A DNA stretch of 38,892 nucleotides from a virus. Every line of letters starts with the position of its first letter. Position 1 is the stretch's first letter. The DNA is taken from IMG/VR virus record IMGVR_UViG_3300032093_000350, positions 1 through 38,892 of that record; one strand, 5' to 3'. Made by a program: the position numbers and the translations under genes. Shown one piece after another: positions 8,947 to 37,633 of this stretch. A model generated the notes under the pieces. That model had not been told where the DNA came from. It saw only the letters and a list, made by a program, of their open reading frames with translations, and ran no database searches.

Positions 8947-8949
8947 TAC

Positions 8950-8957
8950 TATTTATA
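8950..8957 (+). promoter_or_regulatory. TATTTATA late-type signal
   Basis: An exact octamer starting 12 bases before the ATG at 8962, filling nearly the whole 15-base gap after the tape measure stop. The arrangement is the same as at 28050, including the preceding C. Confidence 0.45.
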
Positions 8958-8961
8958 ATAA

Positions 8962-11466: not shown

Positions 11467-11503
11467 ACAACAACCGACGCAAATATACACAAATACGTTT
11501 AAT

Positions 11504-11794
11504 ATGAGATATCAATTTACACCAGTTCAAAAACGATGGGACGGTAAAAATACATACAAAACTACGTATTATCCCATCATACCAGAATCGCCTGACGATT
11601 TTTATATTACTGTAAGTGAAGTTGATTATCTCGACAGTTTGGCTAAAAAATATTATGGCGATGAAAGTTTATGGTGGATCATTGCTAGAGCAAATAATTT
11701 AACTGGATATAAATTATCTGTCAATAACAATAAACAACTACGTATACCTGCTAACACATCTATCATATTTAATAATTTAAAAAATATAAATTGA
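11504..11794 (+). CDS. 53: LysM-like baseplate wedge protein (gp53-type)
   Basis: A 96-residue protein with the phage LysM-like pattern LDSLAKKYYGDESLWWIIARANNL followed by KQLRIPAN. In tail proteins this domain helps attach baseplate parts to the tube and sheath end, and a similar segment ends T4 gp53. It is much shorter than T4 gp53, so it may be a stand-alone LysM tail protein (gpX-like), and the symbol is tentative. It lies between the two largest baseplate genes with gaps of 37 and 4 bases, consistent with co-assembly. Confidence 0.72.
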   Translation: MRYQFTPVQKRWDGKNTYKTTYYPIIPESPDDFYITVSEVDYLDSLAKKYYGDESLWWIIARANNLTGYKLSVNNNKQLRIPANTSIIFNNLKNIN

Positions 11795-11798
11795 CCGT

Positions 11799-14700
11799 AT
11801 GGCACAAAATCAAGAAATATCTAATACGGCCCCATTGTGGTGGGAGTTGCAAAACATTCCGACGCAAGTTGTGAGAGAGTTGAGAAGACGTAGCAATTCT
11901 CAAAACATAGGATTGAGTGTTCCGTCTCCCTACATACCAACTTCAACATTTAATTTTGAATCCAACTATAACTCGTATAAGGGTCCGATGACTCCGTGGG
12001 TTAGAGTGTTTAGTAACAGTACAGGAAAATCCATAAACGGAATGGTACCACATAGTTCTTATTTAGACAGATATTATGTACCGGTTGATTATGATGGATT
12101 TATTTTAAAAGGAGGTGACGGTTTTTACGATGCTTTTGGATATGATTCAAAAATAGGTTTTAATCAAACAAATGCTATAATTGGTTACCAAGCCGATGGA
12201 AAACCTCATTTCATAGACGGATTATATCGTACACAACTAAACTATACAACGAGAACTGAAGGATATTTTCCACAAAATAATCAAACTCCATCGGTGTTAC
12301 CGCCTCCTGGAATAACTCAGGTTACTGTTAAACAAAGCAAAGAATTTTTAACATACGCTACTATTAACTTTAAATGTTATGGGTTAGCACAACTAGAGTA
12401 TTTAACTCCGTTTTTTCTGACTGCTGGAATAAATGTTTTTGTTGAGTTTGGATGGAACTTATTTAATCAAAAATCAATACTAAATTTAGCAGATGAAAAG
12501 GAATGTTGGGAAATTATAGAAAAACCACAAACGGCTCTAGACAGAGCTAATGCATCAAATGGTAATTATGGATGTGTAAGTGGAATTGTAACCAAATATT
12601 CATTTGTTACGGTTGATGGATATACATATGATTGCACTACTGAACTTATTTCTAGACAAGGATTGTTCGCCGGTATGCGAACGGATACAAATGCTAAAAT
12701 ATCTGTAGGAGACAAAGACGGTGATAAAAATGATAAAGAATTCTTAGATTTAAGAACATTTTTTAAACTTTATTTGCCATCAATAAATCAAGTATTGATG
12801 GAAAATCAAAATGAACCAAAAGCTAATTTTTTGAATTATATTATAGATAAAATAGATTCTATAAAACCTGATAAGTCACAAAAAGACGCCGACGCAAACG
12901 CGCAACAATCGGAGAAAAGTATAAGAACTGTTATTGAAACCGTTAAAAATTACAATAAAACCTTTTATGATGGTAAACCCGAAGATAGAGTTTTTATTGG
13001 CAGATTGGAAGAAGTTTACAAAAAGAAAAATTCCGTGAGTTCCGGACCTGTTATTAGTTATAGAAATATTAAACCGTTTTCAAAAGCACCGACATTAAGC
13101 CAGCTTTCTGACATTGATGTTAAAACTGATTTTGACGGTAAAGACGGCGCAAAAGAGGTTTGGATGCAATTAGATTTTGTGTTTGAATTGGTAAATCTGT
13201 TTATGTCAAATAGAAATACAAACCAATTTTTAATTGATATAAAAGATGTTATAGTAAATGCTCACCCAAACTTAATATCATGTGATAAAAATGTATTAAT
13301 ACCAAATCCGGTTGCGCCTAAAGTAAATAAAGGTACGGTTTATAAAAAAGGATCTCCAAACAGTGGTTATATTAAAACTAAAGATACTTATGAAGATTTA
13401 ACAATGTCAGATACAAGAGCTGTAACGGATTTTTTAAGCATAACACAGTTACAAAATTTTGATGTAGATCCGTTTATTTCACAATTACAAGATATAACGG
13501 TTGAAAGAAATATAGAATTGGAAAATAAATATAAAAAAGCTAAAGATGAAAACGAGTTAAAAGAATTTTACAAAAGATTAACTGTAGAAGAAAGTTATTA
13601 TTTGGCGTGTGAATCTGCTAGAAAAGCTTTTAAAACCGCCGGCCGTGTAAGAGACAATCTGGATATCGTTATTAATTATTTATATTATAATAGTATAAAT
13701 AAAAACGCAGAGTCTATAGCAGCTTTTCCTTTTGCAAAAGAAACAAATGGTTACAAACAATACTATTATGGATACTTAAAACACATTTATATCAGTAAAA
13801 CAAAATTAATAGAAATTGTAAAATCCGAAGAAACAAAGGGATACAAACAGTTTATAACAGCTATATTAAATACACTAAATTCGTCAACTGAAAATTTTTG
13901 GAAGTTTGAAATTGTTGAAGGACAAGACAAAGATGGAAAGTCGACGGTGTCAATTATAGATAAAAATACGTCAAATTTGGATGCTTTAAAACAGATTTAT
14001 ACATTTGAATTGGGTAGTACAAATAATGTTGTACGAAGTATAGATTTCAATGTTAATTTAACAAATGAACAGGCTATAAACGTTTTGTTTGGAGGTCAAA
14101 ATTCCGCTGTAGCTGGATTGAAAGACAAATATACATCTTCTATAAAAAATGCACAATCTGTTGGTGATGTTGAGGGTACATTGACCGATTTAAGCAAAGT
14201 GCCATTTTTGAAATTTGTTGATAGAATGGATCGTTATCAACTAACCTTATTAGCTGAAAAACAAAAAGAACAATTAAAATCTTCACCTACATCTTCAACT
14301 GTACCTGGTACAACATCTGGTATAGAAAACGATAATAGTATGATTGAGTCTATACAAAAATATGGTCCGCAAGAATCAAATGGAATACTGTGTATGACTT
14401 TTAAACAAGTTTCGTCTGTATATGAAAACGACATAAAAATAATACAGAACGTTATAGGAACAGGCCGCGCGGACGCGTCTATTCGTGGACCGGCGCTTAA
14501 AAGATTAGATAATGTTCCTAAAAACTATAAATATTTGTGTCTGCCAAATGAACTTAGAGGTAAATTATTACAAATGTTAGACGACGGTGATTATAGACAT
14601 AATGCAGCAAAATATAGCGGCGTAGCAGATAATTTTACCGTAATTATAAAACTTGATGGTATTTTTTCATTTAAAAATCTACAAGTATTTGCTATAAATA

Positions 14701-14846
14701 ATTTACCAAAACCATATGTGCCTGGAAATGTAATATTTCAAGTATTAGAAGTTGATCACGTTTTGACCGCTGGAAAATGGGAAACGGTGGTCAACGCTTT
14801 GGTACGTTGTATCGGAGGCACAGACCTTGAATATGTTGTTATATGA
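11799..14846 (+). CDS. Large baseplate hub-type structural protein
   Basis: A 1015-residue protein, the largest in the window. The N-terminal third contains a beta-rich region (TVKQSKEFLTYATINFKCYGLAQLEYLTPFFLTAGINVFVEFGWN). The middle is long, charged and helical. The C-terminal 60 residues read like a hub domain (NFTVIIKLDGIFSFKNLQVFAINNLPKPY, then VLEVDHVLTAGKWETVVNALVRC). The pattern V-x-H-x(5)-G-x-W-x-T-x-V recurs in gp27/gpD-like hub proteins that bridge tube and spike. I infer a hub role from that and from the neighbours. It overlaps the next gene by four bases (ATGA). No lysozyme motif is visible. Confidence 0.7.
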   Translation: MAQNQEISNTAPLWWELQNIPTQVVRELRRRSNSQNIGLSVPSPYIPTSTFNFESNYNSYKGPMTPWVRVFSNSTGKSINGMVPHSSYLDRYYVPVDYDGFILKGGDGFYDAFGYDSKIGFNQTNAIIGYQADGKPHFIDGLYRTQLNYTTRTEGYFPQNNQTPSVLPPPGITQVTVKQSKEFLTYATINFKCYGLAQLEYLTPFFLTAGINVFVEFGWNLFNQKSILNLADEKECWEIIEKPQTALDRANASNGNYGCVSGIVTKYSFVTVDGYTYDCTTELISRQGLFAGMRTDTNAKISVGDKDGDKNDKEFLDLRTFFKLYLPSINQVLMENQNEPKANFLNYIIDKIDSIKPDKSQKDADANAQQSEKSIRTVIETVKNYNKTFYDGKPEDRVFIGRLEEVYKKKNSVSSGPVISYRNIKPFSKAPTLSQLSDIDVKTDFDGKDGAKEVWMQLDFVFELVNLFMSNRNTNQFLIDIKDVIVNAHPNLISCDKNVLIPNPVAPKVNKGTVYKKGSPNSGYIKTKDTYEDLTMSDTRAVTDFLSITQLQNFDVDPFISQLQDITVERNIELENKYKKAKDENELKEFYKRLTVEESYYLACESARKAFKTAGRVRDNLDIVINYLYYNSINKNAESIAAFPFAKETNGYKQYYYGYLKHIYISKTKLIEIVKSEETKGYKQFITAILNTLNSSTENFWKFEIVEGQDKDGKSTVSIIDKNTSNLDALKQIYTFELGSTNNVVRSIDFNVNLTNEQAINVLFGGQNSAVAGLKDKYTSSIKNAQSVGDVEGTLTDLSKVPFLKFVDRMDRYQLTLLAEKQKEQLKSSPTSSTVPGTTSGIENDNSMIESIQKYGPQESNGILCMTFKQVSSVYENDIKIIQNVIGTGRADASIRGPALKRLDNVPKNYKYLCLPNELRGKLLQMLDDGDYRHNAAKYSGVADNFTVIIKLDGIFSFKNLQVFAINNLPKPYVPGNVIFQVLEVDHVLTAGKWETVVNALVRCIGGTDLEYVVI

Positions 14847-15226
14847 TAAAAGATACCCCCGATAATATTGCATCAATTGTAGGATTAAATTCGTATACAT
14901 ACACGAATCCTACCACATACACCCCCGTCATAAGTGAAAACGATTATGATTATGGATATATCAGCAGATTTTTCGTCGCAAAAATTAATTATTTTGATGT
15001 ATACGAAACCAATAACAAAGATTTTAATTTGGCGAATGATTCTTTTTATAAAAAAATAAAGATTGATTGGAAGATTACTGGACCAGAATTCAATATATAC
15101 AAAGGCAAGGTTTTAGAAACAACAGGAGTTGTTAATTATAACGTTTTACAAATCAAAGCAGCATCTTCGTATATACCAAACATCGGGGTTATTTTAAATA
15201 ATCCAAAACAGTTTTGGAAAGGATAA
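14843..15226 (+). CDS. Small tail/baseplate-associated protein (127 aa)
   Basis: It starts within the stop of the hub-type gene (ATGA overlap), so it is translationally coupled and probably works with it. The sequence is aromatic-rich and beta-like (SRFFVAKINYFDVYETNNKDF, then VVNYNVLQIKAASSYIPNIGVILNNPKQFWKG), acidic, without cysteines or membrane segments. I cannot assign a family. It is the last gene of the structural run; a sigma70-like promoter and the polymerase-like gene follow. Confidence 0.7.
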   Translation: MIKDTPDNIASIVGLNSYTYTNPTTYTPVISENDYDYGYISRFFVAKINYFDVYETNNKDFNLANDSFYKKIKIDWKITGPEFNIYKGKVLETTGVVNYNVLQIKAASSYIPNIGVILNNPKQFWKG

Positions 15227-15229
15227 TAG

Positions 15230-15257
15230 TTGACTTTTATTTTACTATGTGTAGTAT
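15230..15257 (+). promoter_or_regulatory. Sigma70-like promoter candidate before polymerase-like gene
   Basis: TTGACT at 15230-15235 and TAGTAT at 15252-15257 are separated by 16 bp. The predicted start falls on or next to the GTG start codon at 15264, so the mRNA would be leaderless or nearly so. The six-base distance from -10 to start codon is the same as for uvsE. Confidence 0.45.
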
Positions 15258-15263
15258 TAAGAT

Positions 15264-16559
15264 GTGAAGTACACATCAAAAATTTACCTTAAATTAATAA
15301 CCAGAGACAACAATTGTCACAGTAAAAGTGACAATATAATCGCGGCGTTTGTTTATGATTTTGGTACCCGACAAAAATATTACTATAATATAAGTCATCC
15401 GGACGTTGCAACGAATTCATCGCTTGACGAGATAAAGAATGAGTTAAAAAACAGTTCGTATTCGGTTTATGTAAAAAATAAAAAAACTTATAAGTATTAC
15501 ATTGATTGTAACTTATTTGACGTGAATCTTTTTAGTTTTATTAATAACAATCAAATATTAAATGACATTAGTTGTGAATGTAAAGATTTTTTGCAGAACA
15601 ACTATCACAACATTAAAGATTATAACGTAATCGTTCCGTATGTGACACACCAGCGCTGTTTTGATGATGAAGTGGAACAAATCAAACATTTATCAAACGA
15701 AGACGTTGATACGTATTGTTACAAATTTTTCAACAACGTTATTACTGATACGTTATATGAAGTTGAAAAAAATGGACTAAAAATAGATTCCGACTTGTTT
15801 AAAACTCATTTTAAAGCCCGTACTTATGATGGATATGTTTATACAAGTTATAATATTTACAATCCCACGGGTAGACCCAGTAATTCATATGATGGCGTAA
15901 ACTACGTAGCTTTAAAGAAAGATAATGGATGTAGATCCAGTTTTATATCCAGATATGGAATTTCTGGTTACTTATTGATGGTAGATTTTACAGGTTTTCA
16001 TCCTTATATTGTTGCCAATTTAATTGATTATAAAGTACCTGAATCAGAGACGATATATGAGTATTTAGCCAAACAATATTACAACACCGATTCAATTTCG
16101 TCTGAACTGCTTAATAAGGCTAAAAAGTTGACATTGGTTAATTTATACGGTCAAATAAATGATGACTATATAAACATAGATTATTTTAAAAAAACAGAAC
16201 AATTAAAAACTGAGTATTGGAACAAATTTCTTAAAAAAGGTTATGTTACAACACCTATTTATAAACGAAAAATAACAACTAAACACGTATCGGATCCAAA
16301 TAAAAACAAATTATTTGCGTATATTATTCAAGCTGCGGAAACTGAATATGGTATGGATAGATTAAAGTCGTGTCTTAAATTTTCATCCGACAAACAAATA
16401 ACTACTGTATTGTACAATTACGATGCTATATTATTTGACGTGGGGATAGTAGATGCAAATGATATACGTGATTTAGTTGATATAATAAAAAACAAAAAAT
16501 TCAAAGTTAAGGTTTATAAAGGAAATAATTATAATGATTTGAAATTAGTGTCGTTGTAA
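15264..16559 (+). CDS. Reduced, divergent family A DNA polymerase-like protein
   Basis: 431 residues with the layout of the PolA palm and fingers. TLYEVEKNGLKIDSDLF (about 167-183) matches the lead-in helix, and NPTGRPSNSYDGVNYVAL the TGR segment. VDFTGFHPYIVANL stands where motif A (DYSQIELR) should be. AKKLTLVNLYGQ stands for motif B, keeping the Lys and Tyr-Gly, and VLYNYDAILFDV for motif C (VHDE). The two catalytic Asp positions seem present, but motif A loses SQIELR and motif C has D-A in place of D-E. No exonuclease motifs are evident in the N-terminal 150 residues. The start is GTG at 15264; an overlapping ATG at 15262 is out of frame and hits TGA. It is probably a conserved derivative with altered or lost activity rather than the main replicase. 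Confidence 0.65.
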   Translation: MKYTSKIYLKLITRDNNCHSKSDNIIAAFVYDFGTRQKYYYNISHPDVATNSSLDEIKNELKNSSYSVYVKNKKTYKYYIDCNLFDVNLFSFINNNQILNDISCECKDFLQNNYHNIKDYNVIVPYVTHQRCFDDEVEQIKHLSNEDVDTYCYKFFNNVITDTLYEVEKNGLKIDSDLFKTHFKARTYDGYVYTSYNIYNPTGRPSNSYDGVNYVALKKDNGCRSSFISRYGISGYLLMVDFTGFHPYIVANLIDYKVPESETIYEYLAKQYYNTDSISSELLNKAKKLTLVNLYGQINDDYINIDYFKKTEQLKTEYWNKFLKKGYVTTPIYKRKITTKHVSDPNKNKLFAYIIQAAETEYGMDRLKSCLKFSSDKQITTVLYNYDAILFDVGIVDANDIRDLVDIIKNKKFKVKVYKGNNYNDLKLVSL

Positions 16560-16562
16560 ATA

Positions 16563-16582
16563 TATTTATATCTATATTTATA
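16563..16582 (+). promoter_or_regulatory. Two tandem TATTTATA octamers
   Basis: Exact copies at 16563-16570 and 16575-16582, 12 bases apart, end 4 bases before the ATG at 16587. This is the only doubled copy seen, and it lies in the 27-base gap before the 764-residue unknown gene. Confidence 0.5.
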
Positions 16583-16586
16583 ATAG

Positions 16587-18881
16587 ATGAACTTTAAATC
16601 ATTAATAAACGATATTTGTTGTGACGGTCGTATAAAGGGTGGATTCATAGATCTTAAAAACGCAGATCATGTTTTTGTGCTTCAAGAATATCTTGAAAAG
16701 AATGGTTACGACGTAAATGAAATAGTAGAAAAAACCGCTGACTTATTTGAAGCTGGTAGATTTCCTGAAAGACAGGCATATAACAAAGACGGTATATTGG
16801 TAACATTTCCAAACAAATCTTATAGAGATCGTGCAGTAAACAAAGGTACACATTTTGCTGAAAATCCAAAAAAAGCTGATACTAATATTTTTACAACTCC
16901 TCCGCCTGATGTATCTACTAATACCGAACCAAGTAAAAAAACAGTTTCTATAGACCAGGAATTAACTGGAGACGTCGAGGATACTCAACAAGACAAGAGA
17001 ACCTCTCAAGAAAAAGAATTTGATGCTAACGACGTATTGTCTATGCTTATAGGACAATCACCACTCGTAAATTACAGTGTAGATGAAGCTAAACGATTTG
17101 GTTTTTATAAAAAAGGTTTTAAATGGTATAATTCTGAGGGTGAATATATTGGACAACAAATATACGATGAATCCGTTTCTAAAAAAGTAATTGTGTCGGA
17201 TGCTATATCTCCCACCGTATATATGAAAAAAGCGGAAAAGATCAAAGATTTAATACATCCCGATCTTTTAAAAAAGCTTGATTTCTTAAAATCAGCAGAT
17301 AAAACAAAACGAACTCAAATATTTGAAACAATTCCTATATTAACCGCTTTTGGTATTACAGAGTTTGAAAATCTCCAAACAGGAGGAGACTATATTGATT
17401 ACGCAATAGGTTTTTTAAACGATTGGGGTAAGTTGAGATCAAAACTTGAAACGATACAAAATCCTAAAGCAAAAGAAGAAAACTTAAAAATATATGAGTT
17501 AGTAGACAAAGATTTAAAAAATATAGGAGGTGAAGGTGTAACTCTGGCGGAACTTGGTACCCCTAGCGATTTTATACACAAATCTATACGAACATTTTAT
17601 GATGCAGCTAACGTATACAATAATAAATTTTTAAAAGGACAAAAAGAAACAAAAGAAAATACAGCTGATATCATTTTAATATATGGAGGAAAATCCAACG
17701 ATGTTATAACTGCTTTGAAAAATGGTCAAATAGAAGACACGGATGTAGATTCAATGGCGAAAATTAAAGATAAAAATATAAAATTTGCTTTAATTAGTTT
17801 AAAGGCCGGTACTGCTCGTTTGGGACACGTATTAACACAATTGGCACAATATGTAGGTCAAACTCTGTCAGCACAGCCATCGTCTGAGAAATTGAACGAA
17901 GGTATAATTGACACAATTTCAAATAGCATAAAAACCGCTATAGATAAAATAAAAAATATTCCTGATATCGTTAAAAACTATTATGAATCTTTTATAAAAT
18001 CTATAAATCCATTTACCAACAAAATACACAACTTCTTTTTTAAAGAACTCAACGTTGATGTAACTCAAATTGAATCTACTGCGTTTAAAAAACTAGAAAG
18101 TTTAGAAAATGAAATTGAAAAAGAAATAGGATCGCTAAATGAAGACGTTGAAAAATGTGATGATGCTCATGCGTTATATACAGGAACAATTGATAAAAAT
18201 CTAAAATCGTTCAAAACTGTACTACAGTCTAATGTGGAAGATATATCACTTTTAAACAAAATAATAGAATTGTCAAACAATCAAATATTGATTGAATTTT
18301 TTCCTATCAGTATAGAAAAACTGGAAATGGAACAAATTAAAAATCTTAAAAAATCTATTGTATATACTATAGACCAAATACAAAAGGATTATAGTATTAA
18401 CGACTGCTTAGAAAGAGATACACTAAGACCTATATTTAAATACAGAGCTAATGTTTTAGCTTTAAAATATATTGATCTCATAATGAATAATGTGCTTAAA
18501 GATGTCAATACATCTAATCCAAATCTAATACGAGACGAATTTATTAAACTTTCAAGCTTGTTATCATCTGAAGCTGTATTTGGTACAAATGTTAGTTTGC
18601 CTCTGATTAAATTTACCGGTAAAAAAATAGAAAAACTAAAATATAAGAGCAATTTTAAATTAGAACTACCTGAAAAGTATAAAGATATAAAATTGGGAAA
18701 GATTCGTATCAATGTAGTACCGGATGAGGGTTATTTAACTGTAAATTTATATTTGTTTATAGGTATCACAATGAAAGATGACATCGCGACACCTACATAT
18801 GCCAACTATTTAATGGATAGTAGCAGTGGAAGCAAATTTACATTCAAAGTTGAAGGGCAGAAAGTAGTGGAAAAATTATGA
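16587..18881 (+). CDS. Large protein of unknown function, probably virion-associated
   Basis: A 764-residue protein I cannot assign. The first 95 residues look like a compact domain (LQEYLEKNGYDVNEIVEK, then FPERQAYNKDGILVTFPNKSYRDRAVNKGTHFAENP). An acidic, Thr/Ser/Pro-rich linker follows (about 96-145). A long mostly helical body has predicted coiled coil at about 495-540, and the end is beta-like (GKIRINVVPDEGYLTVNLYLFIGI). Cysteines are few and there is no membrane segment. The doubled TATTTATA upstream suggests late, strong expression, which fits a structural or ejected internal protein. It overlaps the next gene by four bases (ATGA). Confidence 0.72.
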   Translation: MNFKSLINDICCDGRIKGGFIDLKNADHVFVLQEYLEKNGYDVNEIVEKTADLFEAGRFPERQAYNKDGILVTFPNKSYRDRAVNKGTHFAENPKKADTNIFTTPPPDVSTNTEPSKKTVSIDQELTGDVEDTQQDKRTSQEKEFDANDVLSMLIGQSPLVNYSVDEAKRFGFYKKGFKWYNSEGEYIGQQIYDESVSKKVIVSDAISPTVYMKKAEKIKDLIHPDLLKKLDFLKSADKTKRTQIFETIPILTAFGITEFENLQTGGDYIDYAIGFLNDWGKLRSKLETIQNPKAKEENLKIYELVDKDLKNIGGEGVTLAELGTPSDFIHKSIRTFYDAANVYNNKFLKGQKETKENTADIILIYGGKSNDVITALKNGQIEDTDVDSMAKIKDKNIKFALISLKAGTARLGHVLTQLAQYVGQTLSAQPSSEKLNEGIIDTISNSIKTAIDKIKNIPDIVKNYYESFIKSINPFTNKIHNFFFKELNVDVTQIESTAFKKLESLENEIEKEIGSLNEDVEKCDDAHALYTGTIDKNLKSFKTVLQSNVEDISLLNKIIELSNNQILIEFFPISIEKLEMEQIKNLKKSIVYTIDQIQKDYSINDCLERDTLRPIFKYRANVLALKYIDLIMNNVLKDVNTSNPNLIRDEFIKLSSLLSSEAVFGTNVSLPLIKFTGKKIEKLKYKSNFKLELPEKYKDIKLGKIRINVVPDEGYLTVNLYLFIGITMKDDIATPTYANYLMDSSSGSKFTFKVEGQKVVEKL

Positions 18882-27476: not shown

Positions 27477-28031
27477 ATGGAAACATTTTTTAACTATTTA
27501 GAAAAAATAATTGTAATAAGCGCTGCTGGAGGAGTACTTTTTGGTGCTTTTAAATGGGTATTTATATTAAATAAAAATATTAAGGAAATTTTATCCGAAG
27601 TCAAACCAAATTCAGGCACTTCTTTGAAAGATCATATTTCTAAAATAGAAAAACAAGTATGCCATGACAGCAATTTGATACAAACTATTTGTATTAGACA
27701 AAAATGGTTATTAGATAATCGTCCAGAACCCATATTTGAATGTGATACGCATGGTAATTGTACGTGGGTAAATGAAAAATATTGTCAGTTATTAAAACAC
27801 GACGTTGAATATTTTTTGAATAATGGATGGAAAAACGGCGTACACCCAGAAGATTTAGAATATGTAGAAAAAGAATGGGAAAAAACCATAAAAGATAAAA
27901 GAAGTAGTGTTAGTACTCATAGGGTGGTTGATAGAGAAGGTACGATTTATAACGTGCGCGTAATCGCTACACGAAACGACAATCACGGATATATAGGACA
28001 CATAGAAGTGTTATCCAATAAAAAAGAATAA
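27477..28031 (+). CDS. Membrane-anchored PAS-domain protein
   Basis: 184 residues. Residues about 8-30 (IIVISAAGGVLFGAFKWVFIL) form one membrane segment, and a short coiled linker follows (31-80). Residues about 82-182 read as a PAS fold of the PAS_3 type: RPEPIFECDTHGNCTWVN, then a helix with LLKHDVEYFLNNGW, HPEDLEYVEKEW, HRVVDREGTIYNVRVIATR, and a last strand GHIEVLSN. PAS domains sense small ligands or redox state or mediate protein contacts. No kinase, cyclase or methyl-acceptor domain is attached, so the output is unknown. A phage-coded sensor or decoy acting on a host signalling complex at the membrane is one idea (inference). It starts a three-gene accessory group after the nrdB terminator. 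Confidence 0.78.
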   Translation: METFFNYLEKIIVISAAGGVLFGAFKWVFILNKNIKEILSEVKPNSGTSLKDHISKIEKQVCHDSNLIQTICIRQKWLLDNRPEPIFECDTHGNCTWVNEKYCQLLKHDVEYFLNNGWKNGVHPEDLEYVEKEWEKTIKDKRSSVSTHRVVDREGTIYNVRVIATRNDNHGYIGHIEVLSNKKE

Positions 28032-28980: not shown

Positions 28981-29007
28981 AAAAACCATCTAACCGATGG
29001 TTTTTTT
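28981..29007 (+). terminator. Terminator before the AAA+/VWA operon
   Basis: AAAAACCATC (28981-28990), loop TAACC, then GATGGTTTTT (28996-29005) and further T. The 10-bp stem is A/T at its base and works on the + strand; the A-tract could also serve the minus strand. Confidence 0.87.
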
Positions 29008-29017
29008 ATTTTTTGTG

Positions 29018-29045
29018 TTGACTTCTTATAAGTCCGTGGTAAGAT
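29018..29045 (+). promoter_or_regulatory. Sigma70-like promoter of the AAA+/VWA operon
   Basis: TTGACT (29018-29023) and TAAGAT (29040-29045), 16 bp apart, directly behind a terminator and 22 bases before the ATG of the AAA+ gene. The context requires a promoter here. Confidence 0.65.
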
Positions 29046-29067
29046 GGATTTACGGTAAGAAAAACAT

Positions 29068-30039
29068 ATGAAAAATAAAAACTCACTAAGTCTGGTTACT
29101 AGCAAGGATTTTGATATTAAAAGTTATCTAAATACCTGTGTCAATCTTCGTCCTTCTTCTTTGATCATGGACGATCTAAAGTGGAAGTATATGGTACGTA
29201 GTGCTATTCGTGGCAAGAACATTCTGCTTCTTGGTCCAACTGGCTGTGGTAAGACTCTATCTGCACAGACTGTAGCTAAGGCTATTGGTCGTGAAGATAA
29301 CTTCTTCTATTTTAATTTGGGGGCTACGCAAGATGCTCGTAGTGCTTTGATCGGTAATACCCACTTTGATAAGAAGACGGGTACTTTGTTTAAGGAGTCT
29401 AGCTTCATCAAAGCGATTCGTACTCCAAATGCCATCATTCTTCTTGACGAAATTTCTCGTAGCCATCATGATGGTGTAAATATTCTAATGACTGTTCTGG
29501 ACGATCTACAACGTTATCTACGTCTTGATGAAAAGGACGATTGTGAAGTTGTCAAGGTTGCTGATGGCGTTACTTTTATTGCTACAGCTAACGTAGGTAA
29601 CGAGTATACCGCTACACGTGTAATGGATCGTGCTCTGCTTTCACGTTTTCCGGTAAAGATTGAAGTAGTTCCTCTTGACAAGGATAGTGAATATAATCTA
29701 CTAAAGAGTCGTTTCAATATCGTAGGCGAAGATCAGCTTGAGATTCTCAAGTCTGTTTGTGAAATTGCCGAACATACACGTAAGCAGGTTAAGCAGGATG
29801 ACAGCAAGCTAACGAATTTTATTCCTACACGTTCAACTGTTGAGATTGCTGAACTTATTGTTGATGGATTTAATTTGCTTGAAATTGCAGAGTCAACCAT
29901 CTATCCTAACTTCAGCGATGACGGAGGTGTAGACAGCGAACGTACTTATATTCGTCAGCTTGTACAGAAGTACATCAAGGTCGAGTCTAAGGAGAAGTTG
30001 TTCAATGATCCGTTAAAGAACGATCAGCCTCCTTTCTAA
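29068..30039 (+). CDS. MoxR/CobS-type AAA+ ATPase
   Basis: A 323-residue AAA+ ATPase. Walker A is GPTGCGKT (56-63), Walker B IILLDEI with D127/E128, and sensor-1 is TFIATANVG. An arginine-finger region RVMDRALLSRFPVKIEV follows, then an alpha-helical lid. The NLGATQDARSALIGNTHFD insert matches MoxR/CobS-like ATPases, which usually act with a VWA-domain partner to remodel or insert metal into a target protein. Exactly such a partner follows 25 bases downstream. T4-like cyanophages carry a cobS-like gene, but no CobN homologue is in this window, so cobalamin synthesis should not be assumed. Arg codons are mostly CGT and Leu often CTT or CTA, pointing to strong expression. Confidence 0.87.
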   Translation: MKNKNSLSLVTSKDFDIKSYLNTCVNLRPSSLIMDDLKWKYMVRSAIRGKNILLLGPTGCGKTLSAQTVAKAIGREDNFFYFNLGATQDARSALIGNTHFDKKTGTLFKESSFIKAIRTPNAIILLDEISRSHHDGVNILMTVLDDLQRYLRLDEKDDCEVVKVADGVTFIATANVGNEYTATRVMDRALLSRFPVKIEVVPLDKDSEYNLLKSRFNIVGEDQLEILKSVCEIAEHTRKQVKQDDSKLTNFIPTRSTVEIAELIVDGFNLLEIAESTIYPNFSDDGGVDSERTYIRQLVQKYIKVESKEKLFNDPLKNDQPPF

Positions 30040-30064
30040 TAACTAAATAAACAAACAAACTATT

Positions 30065-32143
30065 ATGAGTAACTATAGTGATTTCTGGTTGAAAGACAAC
30101 CATTACGAATGGGATTGGGAAGATGAACTAAATGTGGCTATTGAAGAAGAAGCTGGCACGGATACCAATGTTGATGCTGAGGATCGTGTTAGTGAGAATA
30201 CCGCTAGATTGATTCGTCTTTCGTCCGCTCGTCGTGCTGTTGCTAATTATGTCAGTATTCTTACGAATCAGAATGTACCTGTAGTATTCAATGATAGTGC
30301 AGTAAATTGTACTGATGGTAAGGTGGTTTATATCAGTAGCGATATTACTAAGAAGGACAATTTTGATGTGGCTGTCGGACTAGCCTTACACGAAGGCAGC
30401 CACATCAAATATTCTGACTTTGAAATGCTCAAGACTGTATGGATGAATGTACCCCGTGACATTTATAACTACTCTGAAAAGTTGAATATTTCAAAGGACG
30501 AGGTAGGTAAGACTTGTCAGACAATTCTAAACTATGTAGAAGATCGTTTTATCGATTATACAGTACATCGTAATGCTCCTGGTTATCGTGGATATTATGA
30601 TGCTTTGTATGATGAATACTTTAATAACAAGGTAGTCACCGATGCTTTGGAAAGTGATTTGTATCGTACATTGAGCATTGAGTCTTATTTGTATCGTATT
30701 ATTAATCTTACAAATCCAAGTACCAATCTAAAGGCACTGCCTGGTTTGTATGATATCGCTAAAGAACTAGATCTTACCAATATTAGTCGTTTGATTACTG
30801 CTAAGTATCGGTTGAACGTTGCTTATAAAATTGCTGAAATTGTGTTTAAGAATATCAATGAACATACTCAACAGCAAGGTGAAATGACGCTGGGTCAAGA
30901 TGTAGGTATCGGAGAAGGTACTTCGTCTGGGACTTCTATGTCTACTGATAGTAGCAAAGATGCATCTGATGTACTTGGTGGTACAGAATCAACTGTAACC
31001 ACTGATAATACAACTGTTGTTTCAGATATTGGCAACGATCCTAACGTTAGCAAGACCAAACAAAGTAAGATTACAAAGGCTTTTGAAAAACAGAAGAATT
31101 TTATTGCTGGTAAGATCAAGAAGAAGAAGGTTTCTAAACGTGAAAAGGCACTATTGGACGTTCTTGAAAAGAGTCAGATCGATCTAGTGCCGGTAGCGCA
31201 AGAAATGCTTAAGGCTAGTGGTATGATTGGAAATATTGAGTGTATTCTTGTAAAGAATATGACTAAGGATCTTATTATGTCTGAGGAATTTCCTATGGGT
31301 ATTGGTAGTAATAATGAAATTACTCGCAAGGAACTTCAAAAAAACATAGATGATGGTATTGTATTGGGTACAAAACTAGGTCGTCGTCTTCAAATTCGTA
31401 ATGAAATTAATATTGATAAGTTTACTCGTCGTAATTTGGGCAAGATTGACAAACGGTTGATGCACGAATTGGGGTTTGAAACCGATAGCAATATCTTTTA
31501 CAACACATTTACAACTAAATATAAGAAGGTTAATTTTCATATTAGTGTAGATGCTAGTTCTAGTATGCGAGGCAGTAAGTGGAATCGTACAATCAAGTTG
31601 TGTGTAGCACTAGCTAAGGCTACATCTATGATTGATAATGTGGATCTTACTATTAGTTTTCGTACAACTATGAGTAATAATCCATATATTCTAGTTGCTT
31701 ATAATTCTAAAGTAGATAAATTTATTAAAATTAAGAATTTGTTTTCTTATTTAATTCCTGTAAATACAACTCCTGAAGGATTGTGTTTTGAGGCACTAAT
31801 GAAGTTCTTGCCAAAAGCCGATGGTAGTACAAATAGTTATTTTGTTAATATTAGCGATGGTGAACCTTGTTTTTTCTATAACAATACAGTAACTCACATT
31901 TCATTTGCTTATCGTGATAAGGAAGCTTGTGAACATACACGTAAACAAGTAAAGAAAATCAAGGAATCTGGATATAATATTATTTCATACTTTGTATCGG
32001 ATTATGATACATTCGGCCTTGACGTTACACGTAATAACTTTAAGACTATGTATGGTAGTGATTCACATTTTATTAATGTAGAGAATCTGAATCAGATTGT
32101 AAAAACTGTTAATAGCAAGATGATGGAAGCTATTGACTTATAA
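30065..32143 (+). CDS. HExxH plus von Willebrand A protein (CobT-like partner)
   Basis: 692 residues in three parts. Residues 50-270 contain a HExxH zinc motif (H109-E-G-S-H113 in GLALHEGSHIKYSD) and a downstream NYVEDRFIDY with acidic candidates for a third metal ligand. Residues about 275-345 are a Ser/Thr/Asp-rich linker. The C-terminal part is a VWA domain with MIDAS DASSS (496-500), Thr in NTTPEG (about 568) and Asp in NISDGEP (598), all three MIDAS elements. MoxR-type ATPases pair with VWA proteins (RavA-ViaA, CobS-CobT, NorQ-NorD). Here the partner also keeps an intact metalloprotease-like motif. The target is unknown; host protein remodelling or cleavage and virion maturation are options. 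The promoter of the next gene overlaps its 3' end. Confidence 0.83.
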   Translation: MSNYSDFWLKDNHYEWDWEDELNVAIEEEAGTDTNVDAEDRVSENTARLIRLSSARRAVANYVSILTNQNVPVVFNDSAVNCTDGKVVYISSDITKKDNFDVAVGLALHEGSHIKYSDFEMLKTVWMNVPRDIYNYSEKLNISKDEVGKTCQTILNYVEDRFIDYTVHRNAPGYRGYYDALYDEYFNNKVVTDALESDLYRTLSIESYLYRIINLTNPSTNLKALPGLYDIAKELDLTNISRLITAKYRLNVAYKIAEIVFKNINEHTQQQGEMTLGQDVGIGEGTSSGTSMSTDSSKDASDVLGGTESTVTTDNTTVVSDIGNDPNVSKTKQSKITKAFEKQKNFIAGKIKKKKVSKREKALLDVLEKSQIDLVPVAQEMLKASGMIGNIECILVKNMTKDLIMSEEFPMGIGSNNEITRKELQKNIDDGIVLGTKLGRRLQIRNEINIDKFTRRNLGKIDKRLMHELGFETDSNIFYNTFTTKYKKVNFHISVDASSSMRGSKWNRTIKLCVALAKATSMIDNVDLTISFRTTMSNNPYILVAYNSKVDKFIKIKNLFSYLIPVNTTPEGLCFEALMKFLPKADGSTNSYFVNISDGEPCFFYNNTVTHISFAYRDKEACEHTRKQVKKIKESGYNIISYFVSDYDTFGLDVTRNNFKTMYGSDSHFINVENLNQIVKTVNSKMMEAIDL

Positions 32144-32160
32144 TATAATTGTGGTATAAT
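32133..32160 (+). promoter_or_regulatory. Sigma70-like promoter of the 129-aa gene
   Basis: TTGACT (32133-32138) overlaps the last codons of the VWA gene, and consensus TATAAT (32155-32160) is 16 bp away. It leaves a leader of about 45 bases with AAAGGA before the ATG at 32212. Confidence 0.72.
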
Positions 32161-32211: not shown

Positions 32212-32601
32212 ATGAAAAAGACAGATCGAAAGAATAAGACAAACCTAACAGTAACATGGCCCTCAAACATCTTTACTATTAAAGAGTTGAATGTTCTGAA
32301 CCCGGATTTCGTAGAAATTACACTACGAGTTCGTATAAAGAAAGCAATAGAGAGTTCTGAAATTACTGATATTGGTGTACTTCACAATGGTAAAGGCCGT
32401 CCTACATTGGTATTTGTACACGGCACTCCAACCAAAGAACATCTTGAGGAGGCTAAGTCAAGACAGGTAATTTTGAAGGATTCAACTACTGTTAACGTAG
32501 TTAACATTAATTCTAAAAAACAAATCGTATCTATTTTTGATGATGCAAAGACAACGAAAAGTGTAATTGAGATGAGTGAAAATAAACCGGTTAATGTATA
32601 A
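32212..32601 (+). CDS. Small protein, possible winged-helix DNA-binding protein (129 aa)
   Basis: Residues about 20-75 read like a winged-helix module: FTIKELNVLNP, then VEITLRVRIKKAIESSEITDIG as a candidate recognition helix and turn, and NGKGRPTLVFVHG as a basic wing with the GRP motif. The remainder is Thr/Val/Lys-rich and looks extended. It has its own strong promoter, a Shine-Dalgarno (AAAGGA) and a closing terminator, so it forms a single-gene unit, as many early regulatory phage genes do. The DNA-binding assignment comes from pattern only and needs a profile search. Direction and position suggest co-expression with the AAA+/VWA pair but under separate control. Confidence 0.65.
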   Translation: MKKTDRKNKTNLTVTWPSNIFTIKELNVLNPDFVEITLRVRIKKAIESSEITDIGVLHNGKGRPTLVFVHGTPTKEHLEEAKSRQVILKDSTTVNVVNINSKKQIVSIFDDAKTTKSVIEMSENKPVNV

Positions 32602-32856: not shown

Positions 32857-32864
32857 TATAAATA
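32857..32864 (-). promoter_or_regulatory. TATTTATA signal on minus strand
   Basis: The + strand reads TATAAATA, which is TATTTATA on the minus strand, 19 bases before the minus-strand ATG at 32845. On the + strand it overlaps the ATG at 32864, so a + strand promoter role for that gene is unlikely. Confidence 0.35.
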
Positions 32865-34048
32865 TGAACGTATTACAAGAATATTTCGGCATTGAGTCTT
32901 TTGATTTTGGAACAAATAAAAAGAAATTGGTAGATAATCTCAATTTCTTAAAATCAATGTCTGTTGAAGAACAAACTTTTTATAAAAAATGGTTAGAAGT
33001 ACAAAACTATAGAAATGTTGCTAATAAATTAAATACGATAAAAGCTCGTATATGGAGACCTACGGATTTTAATAATGAAACACTTACAATTAAAGAAATT
33101 GAAAGCTGTCAACCAGAATTGGTTTATGTAGAAACCAAACAACAAAATGAAGATTGGACTTTATTGCGAATATTTGTAAGCACATTTGAGTTTAGTCAAA
33201 CTCCGGGTCGGTTTCTTAAGTTTCTTATAGTTGATAAAAATAAACCAGAAACTCCATACATCGGAGTTTTAGCTGTTAGTAGCGATGTAATTACTATTAC
33301 GGACCGTGACAATTATATTGGGTGGAATTCTGATAATAAAATTAAAGATAAAAAATTAGCACACAGTGCTATTGGTAGTAGTATTATTAGTACACAACCA
33401 TTTGGATATAATTTTCTGGGTGGTAAATTGGCAGCCGCGATGGTTGTTAGTAGCGGTGTAAGAGATTTATGGAAGAAACTATATAATCAAACTCTTGTAG
33501 GCATGACCACTACATCGTTGTATGGCAGCTACAGTATGTATAACAGTTTAAAATGGTGGCATAAATGTGGAACTAGTGCTGGTAAAGTTGCTATAAAACC
33601 AGATGATGAAATTTATAAAGTGTGGCACAATTGGGTAAAAGAAAATTGTACTGAAAAATATGATAAAGCTATGACTCAAAAAGAAGGAGTAAGTGGACCT
33701 GTAACCGGTGCTAAATCAAGAGTCATAGGAATGATCTTTAGCAAGTGTGATATAAAACAAAGTCATTATATGCACGGTTATGAACGAGGTGTATATTACA
33801 GTTGTTTTTATGATAACAGCAAAGAATTCTTTCAAAATAAAATTACCGAAGATAAATTGGTGATGAAGAAGTTATTTGTTGATGATAATAAAGCCATTAT
33901 GGAATGGTGGAAACCAAAGGCTATTGAAAGATATAAGAAATTAAAGAGTGAAGGTAATTTAAAAACTGATATACACTTTTATAATCAAATGATCGGCATG
34001 ACATATGATGAAGCAAAGAGTGTTTATTTTCACGAAGTTGGTCGTTGA
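32864..34048 (+). CDS. DruA/DUF4338-like protein
   Basis: 394 residues. The central part has the pattern I associate with DUF4338, the DruA family of Druantia defence: YIGVLAVSSDVITITDRDNYIGW, then KLAHSAIGSSIISTQPFGYNFLGGKLAAAMVVS, LVGMTTTSLYGSYSMYNSLKWW and KCGTSAGKV. The C-terminal 120 residues are basic and helical with KAIERYKKL. The biochemical role of DruA is not established. No DruE helicase or other Druantia gene is present, so this is not a Druantia locus. A stand-alone phage copy could be a mobile-element remnant, a competitor of the host system or a nucleic-acid enzyme (inference). It is followed by a strong promoter and uvsE. The family call is from memory of the pattern. Confidence 0.62.
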   Translation: MNVLQEYFGIESFDFGTNKKKLVDNLNFLKSMSVEEQTFYKKWLEVQNYRNVANKLNTIKARIWRPTDFNNETLTIKEIESCQPELVYVETKQQNEDWTLLRIFVSTFEFSQTPGRFLKFLIVDKNKPETPYIGVLAVSSDVITITDRDNYIGWNSDNKIKDKKLAHSAIGSSIISTQPFGYNFLGGKLAAAMVVSSGVRDLWKKLYNQTLVGMTTTSLYGSYSMYNSLKWWHKCGTSAGKVAIKPDDEIYKVWHNWVKENCTEKYDKAMTQKEGVSGPVTGAKSRVIGMIFSKCDIKQSHYMHGYERGVYYSCFYDNSKEFFQNKITEDKLVMKKLFVDDNKAIMEWWKPKAIERYKKLKSEGNLKTDIHFYNQMIGMTYDEAKSVYFHEVGR

Positions 34049-34079: not shown

Positions 34080-34997
34080 ATGATGAAAAAATCACTATGT
34101 TGCATCAGTCTCAAACTTCAAGAGCAAGGAATCAAAGGGTCAACCATGACCAAAACACGATTTCTTGCTCTTGATCGTAAAAATGCAGAAAAAATTGTTG
34201 CAGATCGTACTCTCAACAATGTTTTTGTTACGCGTAAAACTCTGGAATTTTGTGTTTCTAAAAAATGGAACTATCGTGTTACAAGTGGTATGATGCCGTT
34301 GGAAACACTTCCCGAAGCAAATTTGTTACTAGAATCTGCCTATAATTTCAAGTCTATCAAAAACGAATTTGATTTGTGTGTTAAAGTAATCAAGGATAAC
34401 AATATTCGTTGTAGCACGCATCCGGATCAATTTGTTGTACCGGCTAGTTCAAACTCAGCTGTAGTAACCAAATCCATCGAAGAACTAAAGATGCATGCCA
34501 AAATGATGGATATGCTTGGTTTACCACAATCATATGAATCTCCTATCAACATTCATATGAACTGTTACAAGGGTGATGTAAAAGATATCGCCTTGCGTTT
34601 TATTGATGTCTATAAAACATTTCCTGACAATGTGAAGTCAAGACTGGTTTTGGAGAACGAAGACAAACCTAATAGTTGGAAAGTTGAAGAACTGTATGAT
34701 TTGATTTATTCTCAAACCGGTATTCCGATTACATATGACAATCTTCATTTTCGTTGTAATCCAGGCAAACTATCCGCTAAAGATGCAGTAAAACTTGCAA
34801 AATCTACTTGGGGTAAGTATACGCCACTGTTTCATTTTAGTGATAACGATTTAAATAATAGTAATCCACGTGCACATGGTGATTATGTACGTAACATTCC
34901 TGACGAATATGTAGGTGAATATGATGTGGATTATGAGTTTGAATTTAAGGCTAAAGATTACGCGATTGAAAAATTTGAAAAAGAGTTTAATCTATAA
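34080..34997 (+). CDS. uvsE: UV damage endonuclease (UvsE/UVDE)
   Basis: Nicks DNA 5' to UV photoproducts and some other lesions. The 305-residue TIM-barrel protein has the family's metal-site motifs in order: STHPDQF (around 118), INIHMN (around 157), LVLENED (around 195), ITYDNLHFRCNPG (around 222), HFSDND (around 257) and the closing DYEFEFKAKDYA. The first strand (LCCISLKL) requires a start at 34080 or the adjacent ATG at 34083. No Shine-Dalgarno is present, since a consensus promoter lies directly upstream. Arg CGT codons dominate. It groups with DNA-modifying genes and suggests a phage exposed to sunlight (inference). Confidence 0.9.
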   Translation: MMKKSLCCISLKLQEQGIKGSTMTKTRFLALDRKNAEKIVADRTLNNVFVTRKTLEFCVSKKWNYRVTSGMMPLETLPEANLLLESAYNFKSIKNEFDLCVKVIKDNNIRCSTHPDQFVVPASSNSAVVTKSIEELKMHAKMMDMLGLPQSYESPINIHMNCYKGDVKDIALRFIDVYKTFPDNVKSRLVLENEDKPNSWKVEELYDLIYSQTGIPITYDNLHFRCNPGKLSAKDAVKLAKSTWGKYTPLFHFSDNDLNNSNPRAHGDYVRNIPDEYVGEYDVDYEFEFKAKDYAIEKFEKEFNL

Positions 34998-36942: not shown

Positions 36943-37194
36943 ATGAACTGCGATTTTAATCACATAATGTTATGGTTGCTAATTGTGTTAGCAACCATAA
37001 TTTCTTTTTTATCTATATTTTTGAGTTTAAGACTTGTTAAAAAATTTGATGAATTTGAACTTATTACATCTAACGCCATTGAAATACTAAATAACGAACG
37101 AATAAATTTGTTAAAACAAGTTGAAATATTATATCGTCGTGGTAGAATATTAAATAATGAAACAAAGGAAAATAACAGAAAACGTAACAAATAA
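36943..37194 (+). CDS. Small membrane protein with coiled tail (83 aa)
   Basis: One N-terminal membrane segment (IMLWLLIVLATIISFLSIFL, residues 8-27) and a charged helical tail (KKFDEFELITSNAIEILNNERINLLKQVEILYRRGRIL) ending in a very basic stretch. The membrane segment is encoded by a perfect 13-bp hairpin with a T-run, which also looks like the terminator of the preceding gene. The frame overlaps the gp62-type gene by 38 bases. Its heptad-like tail makes a real protein likely, but the terminator overlap leaves doubt. Function unknown. Confidence 0.55.
   Translation: MNCDFNHIMLWLLIVLATIISFLSIFLSLRLVKKFDEFELITSNAIEILNNERINLLKQVEILYRRGRILNNETKENNRKRNK
36970..37010 (+). terminator. Terminator-like hairpin inside a coding region
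   Basis: TTATGGTTGCTAA (36970-36982), loop TTGTG, TTAGCAACCATAA (36988-37000), a perfect 13-bp stem followed by TTTCTTTTTT. It probably ends the transcript of the 68-aa gene. Confidence 0.82.
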
Positions 37195-37633
37195 ATCCCG
37201 CGGATTATTTGACCATGTAAATCATATACGGGAAATTAAAAATCCAGACTATTATGCAAGTCTAACTGACTCTGAAAAAACATCTTTCAATAAATATATG
37301 ATCGTTAGAATATTAAGCATGGATAGTGATCTAATTGAAGAAATGGCACTCATATCTAAATATTTTCAGATTATTCCAAACGAACAATTTTACAAGATAA
37401 TGATTGAAGTAGTTCCAAAAGGTAGAAAATTTTGTAAGTATATAAAGGGTTCGTTGGATAATATAAACAAAACTGTACTGGAATGCATTTGTAAAAAGTT
37501 CTCTGTTGGAGAGTCCGACGCTAAAGATTATTATAATGTATTTATTTCTTCTGAAACAGGCATAAAAGATTTAGTTTGCTTAATTGAAGGATTTGGTTTT
37601 TCTGAAAAAGAAGTGGAAAAAATGTTATCATGA
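37157..37633 (+). CDS. 62: Sliding-clamp loader small subunit (gp62-like)
   Basis: 158 residues. The family pattern is clear: LFDHVNHIREIKNPDYYASLTDSEKTSFNKYMIVRILSMD at the start, VPKGRKFCKYIKG in the middle, then LECICKKFSVGESDAKDYYNVF and IEGFGFSEKEVEKML at the end. This matches the phage clamp-loader A subunit (T4 gp62), which with gp44 loads the gp45 clamp. Those partners are not in the window. The start at 37157 gives a 15-residue basic N-terminal extension before the usual SLFDH-like beginning; no alternative start codon lies closer. The stop overlaps the dNMP kinase start (ATGA), so the two are coupled. Confidence 0.85.
   Translation: MKQRKITENVTNKSRGLFDHVNHIREIKNPDYYASLTDSEKTSFNKYMIVRILSMDSDLIEEMALISKYFQIIPNEQFYKIMIEVVPKGRKFCKYIKGSLDNINKTVLECICKKFSVGESDAKDYYNVFISSETGIKDLVCLIEGFGFSEKEVEKMLS

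Follow-up and report, generated by a model that had tools for sequence, protein, structure and literature searches.

A MoxR-type ATPase and a zincin-like VWA protein in a T4-like phage fragment

The window (the whole stretch of DNA analysed here) spans an IMG/VR record of 38,892 bases from end to end and represents a fragment of a T4-like phage genome. It carries a T4-like gene set comprising tail and baseplate genes, single-strand binding protein, UvsX and a DnaB-like helicase, together with genes for NrdA, NrdB, a small clamp-loader subunit and a dNMP kinase. The nearest named relatives of the phage are Microcystis phage Mel-JY01 and the 484-kb phage LR756508. Amid the replication and nucleotide genes, and not among the virion genes, lies a pair of genes separated by 25 nt, the first encoding an AAA+ ATPase and the second a partner protein that joins a zincin-like motif to a VWA domain (Table 1).

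Table 1. Positions in the window of the AAA+/VWA gene pair, its motifs and its flanking signals.
Feature	Position	Strand	Evidence
Intrinsic terminator (hairpin and T run) upstream of the pair	28981..29005	+	Kept in relatives, with a paired stem change
Sigma70-type promoter, TTGACT-16-TAAGAT, TG before the -10	29018..29045	+	Same place in 11/11 relatives, TAATAT in one
MoxR-type AAA+ ATPase, 323 aa	29068..30039	+	Pfam AAA_5, E 1.1e-17; PHROG 249 'porphyrin biosynthesis', E 2.4e-26; solved relatives include Midasin, NorQ and CobS
Walker A, GPTGCGKT, residues 56-63	29233..29256	+	Sequence and family alignment
Walker B, D127-E128	29446..29451	+	Sequence and family alignment
Zincin-like and VWA partner protein, 692 aa	30065..32143	+	ORF, motif conservation, predicted fold
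HEGSH motif, residues 109-113	30389..30403	+	HE[GA]SH in 32/32 representatives
Candidate glutamate helix, NYVEDRFID, residues 156-164; E159 candidate third metal ligand	30530..30556	+	Invariant residues; aligns with cyanophage NVxEDxRIE
MIDAS DASSS, residues 496-500	31550..31564	+	D496, S498 and S500 invariant
MIDAS T569	31769..31771	+	Invariant
MIDAS D598	31856..31858	+	Invariant
Next-gene promoter, which overlaps the 3' end of the VWA gene and bounds the unit	32133..32160	+	11/12 in the window, 12/12 in relatives

An earlier note, made from the sequence alone, had read the first gene as a MoxR-type ATPase and the second as a protein combining HEGSH with a VWA domain. For both, the position or frame, the length and the motifs proved to be as described. 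In the family alignment of the ATPase the Walker A segment and D127/E128 are invariant except at P57 and T58, and the protein belongs to the MoxR clade with both Walker motifs in place. Midasin and NorQ outscore CobS as its solved relatives. A defence-system reading of the ATPase was rejected, PADLOC yielding generic AAA matches only.

The note's placing of the unit between a terminator with promoter and the promoter of the next gene also holds, and the arrangement is the same in relatives. The upstream terminator and promoter stand at an identical site in 11 of the 11 relatives compared; a recurring TTGACA-16-TATAAT is likewise found where the VWA gene ends. Region-wide, promoter-like sites are not commoner than in shuffled sequence. 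The strong codon bias that had also been claimed is weakly supported, with Nc values of 37.6 and 37.0 for the two genes and GC3 values of 0.34 and 0.28 versus approximately 0.20-0.27 for most genes.

Conservation of the metallopeptidase-like and MIDAS residues

The conservation of the partner protein was assessed across 32 representatives at most 70% identical to one another. H109, E110, S112 and H113 of the HEGSH region were invariant in all 32, as were N156, E159, D160 and D164 further downstream and D496, S498, S500, T569 and D598 of the VWA domain. The full MIDAS of the earlier description thus requires one correction: D496, S498, S500 and D598 stand, and the threonine is T569 rather than T568, the latter being serine in Mel-JY01. 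The note had also raised the prospect of homologues lacking HExxH; the motif is kept across the homologues.

By comparison, the 2,124 remaining ORFs of the fetched loci contain HExxH at a rate of 0.010 per 692 residues. The combination of HExxH with a following NxxED was present in 107 of 108 relatives, the sole exception being a truncated copy, and outside these relatives the combined signature was met in one other ORF of the fetched loci, the CobT of Mae-Yong1326-1. Searches of Pfam, PHROGs and NCBIfam assigned the partner protein to no family, Pfam and NCBIfam gave no hit to any known peptidase family, and a PDB sequence search with the VWA family returned chance or low-complexity matches only.

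The searches found 25 close viral loci, and relatives of the partner protein on at least 572 viral contig stretches. A genome-contig search additionally revealed two full-length relatives in MAG contigs that are not clearly cellular (L115 and L116, labelled Nitrosopelagicus and Flavobacteriaceae); these are probably viral contigs binned with the MAGs.

Co-occurrence with the ATPase was examined, as the note had proposed, and the two genes proved to travel together. The ATPase gene was present alongside the VWA gene in 29 of the 32 fetched stretches. Searching whole contigs raised this to 30 of 32, and the two remaining representatives are fragments of 22 and 29 kb. The gene order is reversed (VWA-ATPase) in three representatives, and in Mel-JY01 the two genes lie 13 kb apart with both kept.

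The search for a conserved third gene, suggested alongside, did not yield one. The candidate considered was the 129-aa ORF that immediately follows the pair (32212-32601); it has a strong conserved promoter, looks winged-helix-like by eye and gave no confident family match. It is kept in 23 of the 32 loci, but nrdA and ORF 28035 are retained about as often (21 each); furthermore, it has its own promoter and was not found near the pair where the order is VWA-ATPase. We have therefore treated its retention as lineage synteny and rejected it as a partner. No virion gene was conserved beside the pair in the related loci.

Predicted structure of the partner protein

The full-length model of the partner protein had a pLDDT of 76.6, with a confident VWA domain. 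Its best PDB match was the VWA domain of NorD bound to NorQ (9qh6, E 1e-6), and the MIDAS domains of Rea1/Mdn1 were also among the top matches. The best viral fold matches were to full-length CobT-like proteins from phages and haloviruses (E 2.6e-15 to 1e-10); ORF892 of Acidianus two-tailed virus was a weak match.

Modelled alone, the N-terminal domain (residues 38-272) reached a pLDDT of 90.9 and a pTM of 0.86. HExxH falls on a predicted helix spanning residues 97-116 and NxxED on a second spanning residues 144-170 (full-length numbering), so that the gluzincin-type feature of HExxH with a downstream glutamate on a second helix is present in both sequence and predicted helices. The minigluzincins selecase and jannalysin accounted for four of the top five PDB matches of this domain, none of them significant (E>1), and no PDB match was obtained at E<1.

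Relation to other AAA+/VWA pairs

Pairs of this kind have precedents. MoxR genes paired with metallopeptidase-vWA genes have already been described in jumbo phages (Iyer et al. 2021, PMC7824862), where the T4-related group 2.2 members (ASV44729.1/ASV44728.2) likewise place an ATPase beside a vWA protein with an N-terminal metallopeptidase domain. The window pair has this architecture, with a MoxR ATPase adjoining a protein in which an N-terminal metallopeptidase-like domain is joined to vWA; the likeness to ASV44729.1/ASV44728.2 is drawn from the published description. The window clade is almost without library annotation. The MIDAS-bearing VWA partner is itself the linked component expected of MoxR AAA+/VWA systems.

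The cyanophage core genes cobS and 'peptidase' (T4-GC 150 and 146; P-SSM2, S-PM2) encode the same combination of HExxH, NxxEDxRIE and VWA MIDAS, the alignment of NYVEDRFID with NVxEDxRIE coming from profile-profile comparison. This pair also adjoins replication genes, as in the window, but differs in that the peptidase comes first, the gap between HExxH and ED is shorter and the sequences are too divergent for a BLAST match. Comparison of the N-terminal profiles alone nevertheless gave P 94% and E 8.7e-8 with HExxH and ED aligned, and the VWA profiles gave P 91% and E 1e-6. The cyanophage 'peptidase' partner was present in 463 phage records.

Viral pairs termed CobST are widespread (PMC8651126). 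Among them (haloarchaeal tailed viruses, Gordonia phages and Microcystis phage Mae-Yong1326-1), the haloviral and Gordonia members match the window protein in fold over the full length, although their sequences are very divergent and their gene neighbours are different. HExxH followed by N-x-x-E-D was found in the cyanophage 'peptidase', the CobT proteins of Ochrobactrum phage OC and Mae-Yong1326-1, Bacteroides phage BS162P1 and the haloviruses HCTV-2 and HVTV-1; Gordonia phage GMA7 has HExxH with a variant second motif, MSEDIRCD. The sequence relationships indicate that the window partner, the cyanophage 'peptidase' and the phage and haloviral 'CobT' proteins are homologous members of one clan, and PHROG 1576 bridges the groups. 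The pair is already known from many tailed viruses, and what is added here is the HExxH...NxxED signature common to viral 'peptidase' and 'CobT' proteins.

Two cellular systems share the design. NorQ-NorD (9qh6, PMC13036017) likewise consists of a MoxR ATPase and a partner made up of an N-terminal domain, a linker and a VWA domain, but acts on nitric oxide reductase, and the NorQD literature searched (including PMC13036017) mentions no protease motif. CobS-CobT-CobN shows the same AAA+/VWA pairing, and some members of the window family weakly match CobT_C; the window family differs in having no PF06213 match, no CobN found and a protease motif.

A putative ATP-driven protease machine and its alternatives

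We consider it probable that the pair is an ATP-driven, two-part AAA+ remodelling machine with a putative gluzincin-like protease. Its support consists of the domain order, motif conservation, co-occurrence, the pair's own conserved promoter, the predicted folds and homology to the phage 'CobT/peptidase' clan. By inference from its family, the MoxR-type ATPase would form a ring, and this ring would contact the partner at its VWA end, in the manner of NorQ with NorD. The partner itself would comprise, in order, an N-terminal gluzincin-like metallopeptidase domain (HEGSH and the glutamate helix NxxED), a disordered acidic linker and the VWA domain. A target could be gripped by the MIDAS via an acidic residue, ATP turnover would then pull on partner or target, and the zincin domain would cut the target. 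Metal binding and catalysis by the HEGSH domain are inferred, and the kept metal ligands can instead serve a structural or metal-handling role. The literature searched reports no experiment on viral members of the pair. The suggestion of the earlier note, that an AAA+/VWA pair with a kept protease-like motif and without a CobN target possibly remodels or cuts a protein, fits all tests run.

The annotation of viral pairs as CobST raises the alternative of a cobaltochelatase, in which the pair would replace CobS and CobT, borrow CobN from the host and raise the supply of cobalamin. This has been proposed for viral cobST in PMC8651126, which regards 'peptidase' as a wrong annotation of CobT, and the alternative is supported by the match of the ATPase to PHROG 249, the presence of CobS structures among its relatives and the weak CobT_C (PF11775) matches of 8 of the 32 partner members (best E 0.0019), the window protein itself not being among these. 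The note had found no CobN in the window. Since the window is a genome fragment, where such an absence says little, ten longer related records were checked, and CobN (PF02514) was found in none of the ten, most of them fragments, while the search was positive in five controls. No viral member tested matched PF06213, the N-terminal family of cellular CobT, a Pfam profile that may miss distant relatives; the control search was positive in Caulobacter, the family was not found in 61 genomes of the class of record G014, and plasmid searches found no cellular CobT for comparison. Further points against a chelatase are the lead of Midasin and NorQ over CobS among the solved ATPase relatives and the fact that chelation needs no intact HExxH. 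The window phage, moreover, encodes a class I ribonucleotide reductase (NrdA/NrdB), an enzyme that needs no B12. As far as sequence conservation can tell, the invariant HExxH and ED speak against the view in PMC8651126 of 'peptidase' as a misannotated CobT. We regard a viral cobaltochelatase as improbable, and the conserved protease site suggests that the vitamin-B12 chelatase label of the pair is wrong or incomplete.

Somewhat less improbable, though still unlikely, is a virion assembly and processing machine that would act late in infection to fold and cut a tail or capsid protein. Virion assembly with processing was explicitly proposed for the jumbo-phage pair in PMC7824862, with the MoxR-vWA pair of Acidianus two-tailed virus as precedent, and ORF892 of that virus is the weak fold match noted above. 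The window pair, however, stands under its own sigma70-type promoter amid replication genes; the P-SSM2 pair lies between gp46 and gp45 and that of Ochrobactrum phage OC between a recombination endonuclease and the sliding clamp, and no conserved virion gene adjoins the pair. The least probable of the readings, and one to which we give very little credence, is a metal-insertion chaperone without proteolysis, its HExxH domain handling metal for a purpose such as loading the metal site of the phage NrdB. NorQD inserts iron (PMC13036017) and, in the window clade, 1.7 kb separates the end of nrdB from the ATPase gene downstream; yet the pair is also found in viruses with other neighbours, for example Microcystis phage Mae-Yong1326-1 and halovirus HVTV-1, and the invariant catalytic-base glutamate of HExxH would be dispensable for a mere carrier of metal.

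For the putative protease machine, a virion protein is a slightly less likely target than a host or replication-phase one, because the pair sits amid replication genes in the window, in cyanophages (P-SSM2) and in Ochrobactrum phage OC. More tentatively, viral 'cobST' pairs, which are a core trait of marine cyanophages, may as a whole be ATP-driven metalloprotease machines acting on proteins of the infected cell rather than chelatases, the window belonging to a large uncharacterised branch. Cyanophage cobS is usually interpreted as a vitamin-B12 auxiliary metabolic gene. Should the conserved HExxH site prove catalytic, this interpretation would be mistaken or incomplete, and an ATP-driven protease common among viruses would have escaped study. 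The conserved protease signature in viral 'cobST' is under-appreciated; HExxH-NxxED identifies single residues whose change would decide function, rendering that of viral 'cobST' testable.

Other features of the window and related records

Several neighbouring genes were recorded in passing. Between nrdB and the AAA+ gene, positions 27477-28031 encode a PAS-domain protein that some relatives lack; it carries a putative membrane segment at its N-terminus. A DruA-like protein (32864-34048; Pfam E 9e-20), present in 19 of 32 related loci, is phage-encoded alone; DruA is otherwise known from the Druantia anti-phage system. The gene for a UV-damage endonuclease (UvdE) follows at 34080-34997, at a distance from the AAA+/VWA pair that differs between relatives. 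Five proteins of 821, 834, 1015, 431 and 764 aa without a PHROG match are encoded between the tail and replication genes (6481-18881).

In this clade the genes for the small (gp62-like; 37157-37633) and large (gp44-like) clamp-loader subunits are approximately 26-33 kb apart, as seen in the window and records G001, G002, G005, G006 and G017; the two genes adjoin each other in G003 and G007. Finally, in locus L006 (1-1736) a helicase gene is split near residue 205 by approximately 640 bases, perhaps an intron or an inserted endonuclease gene.
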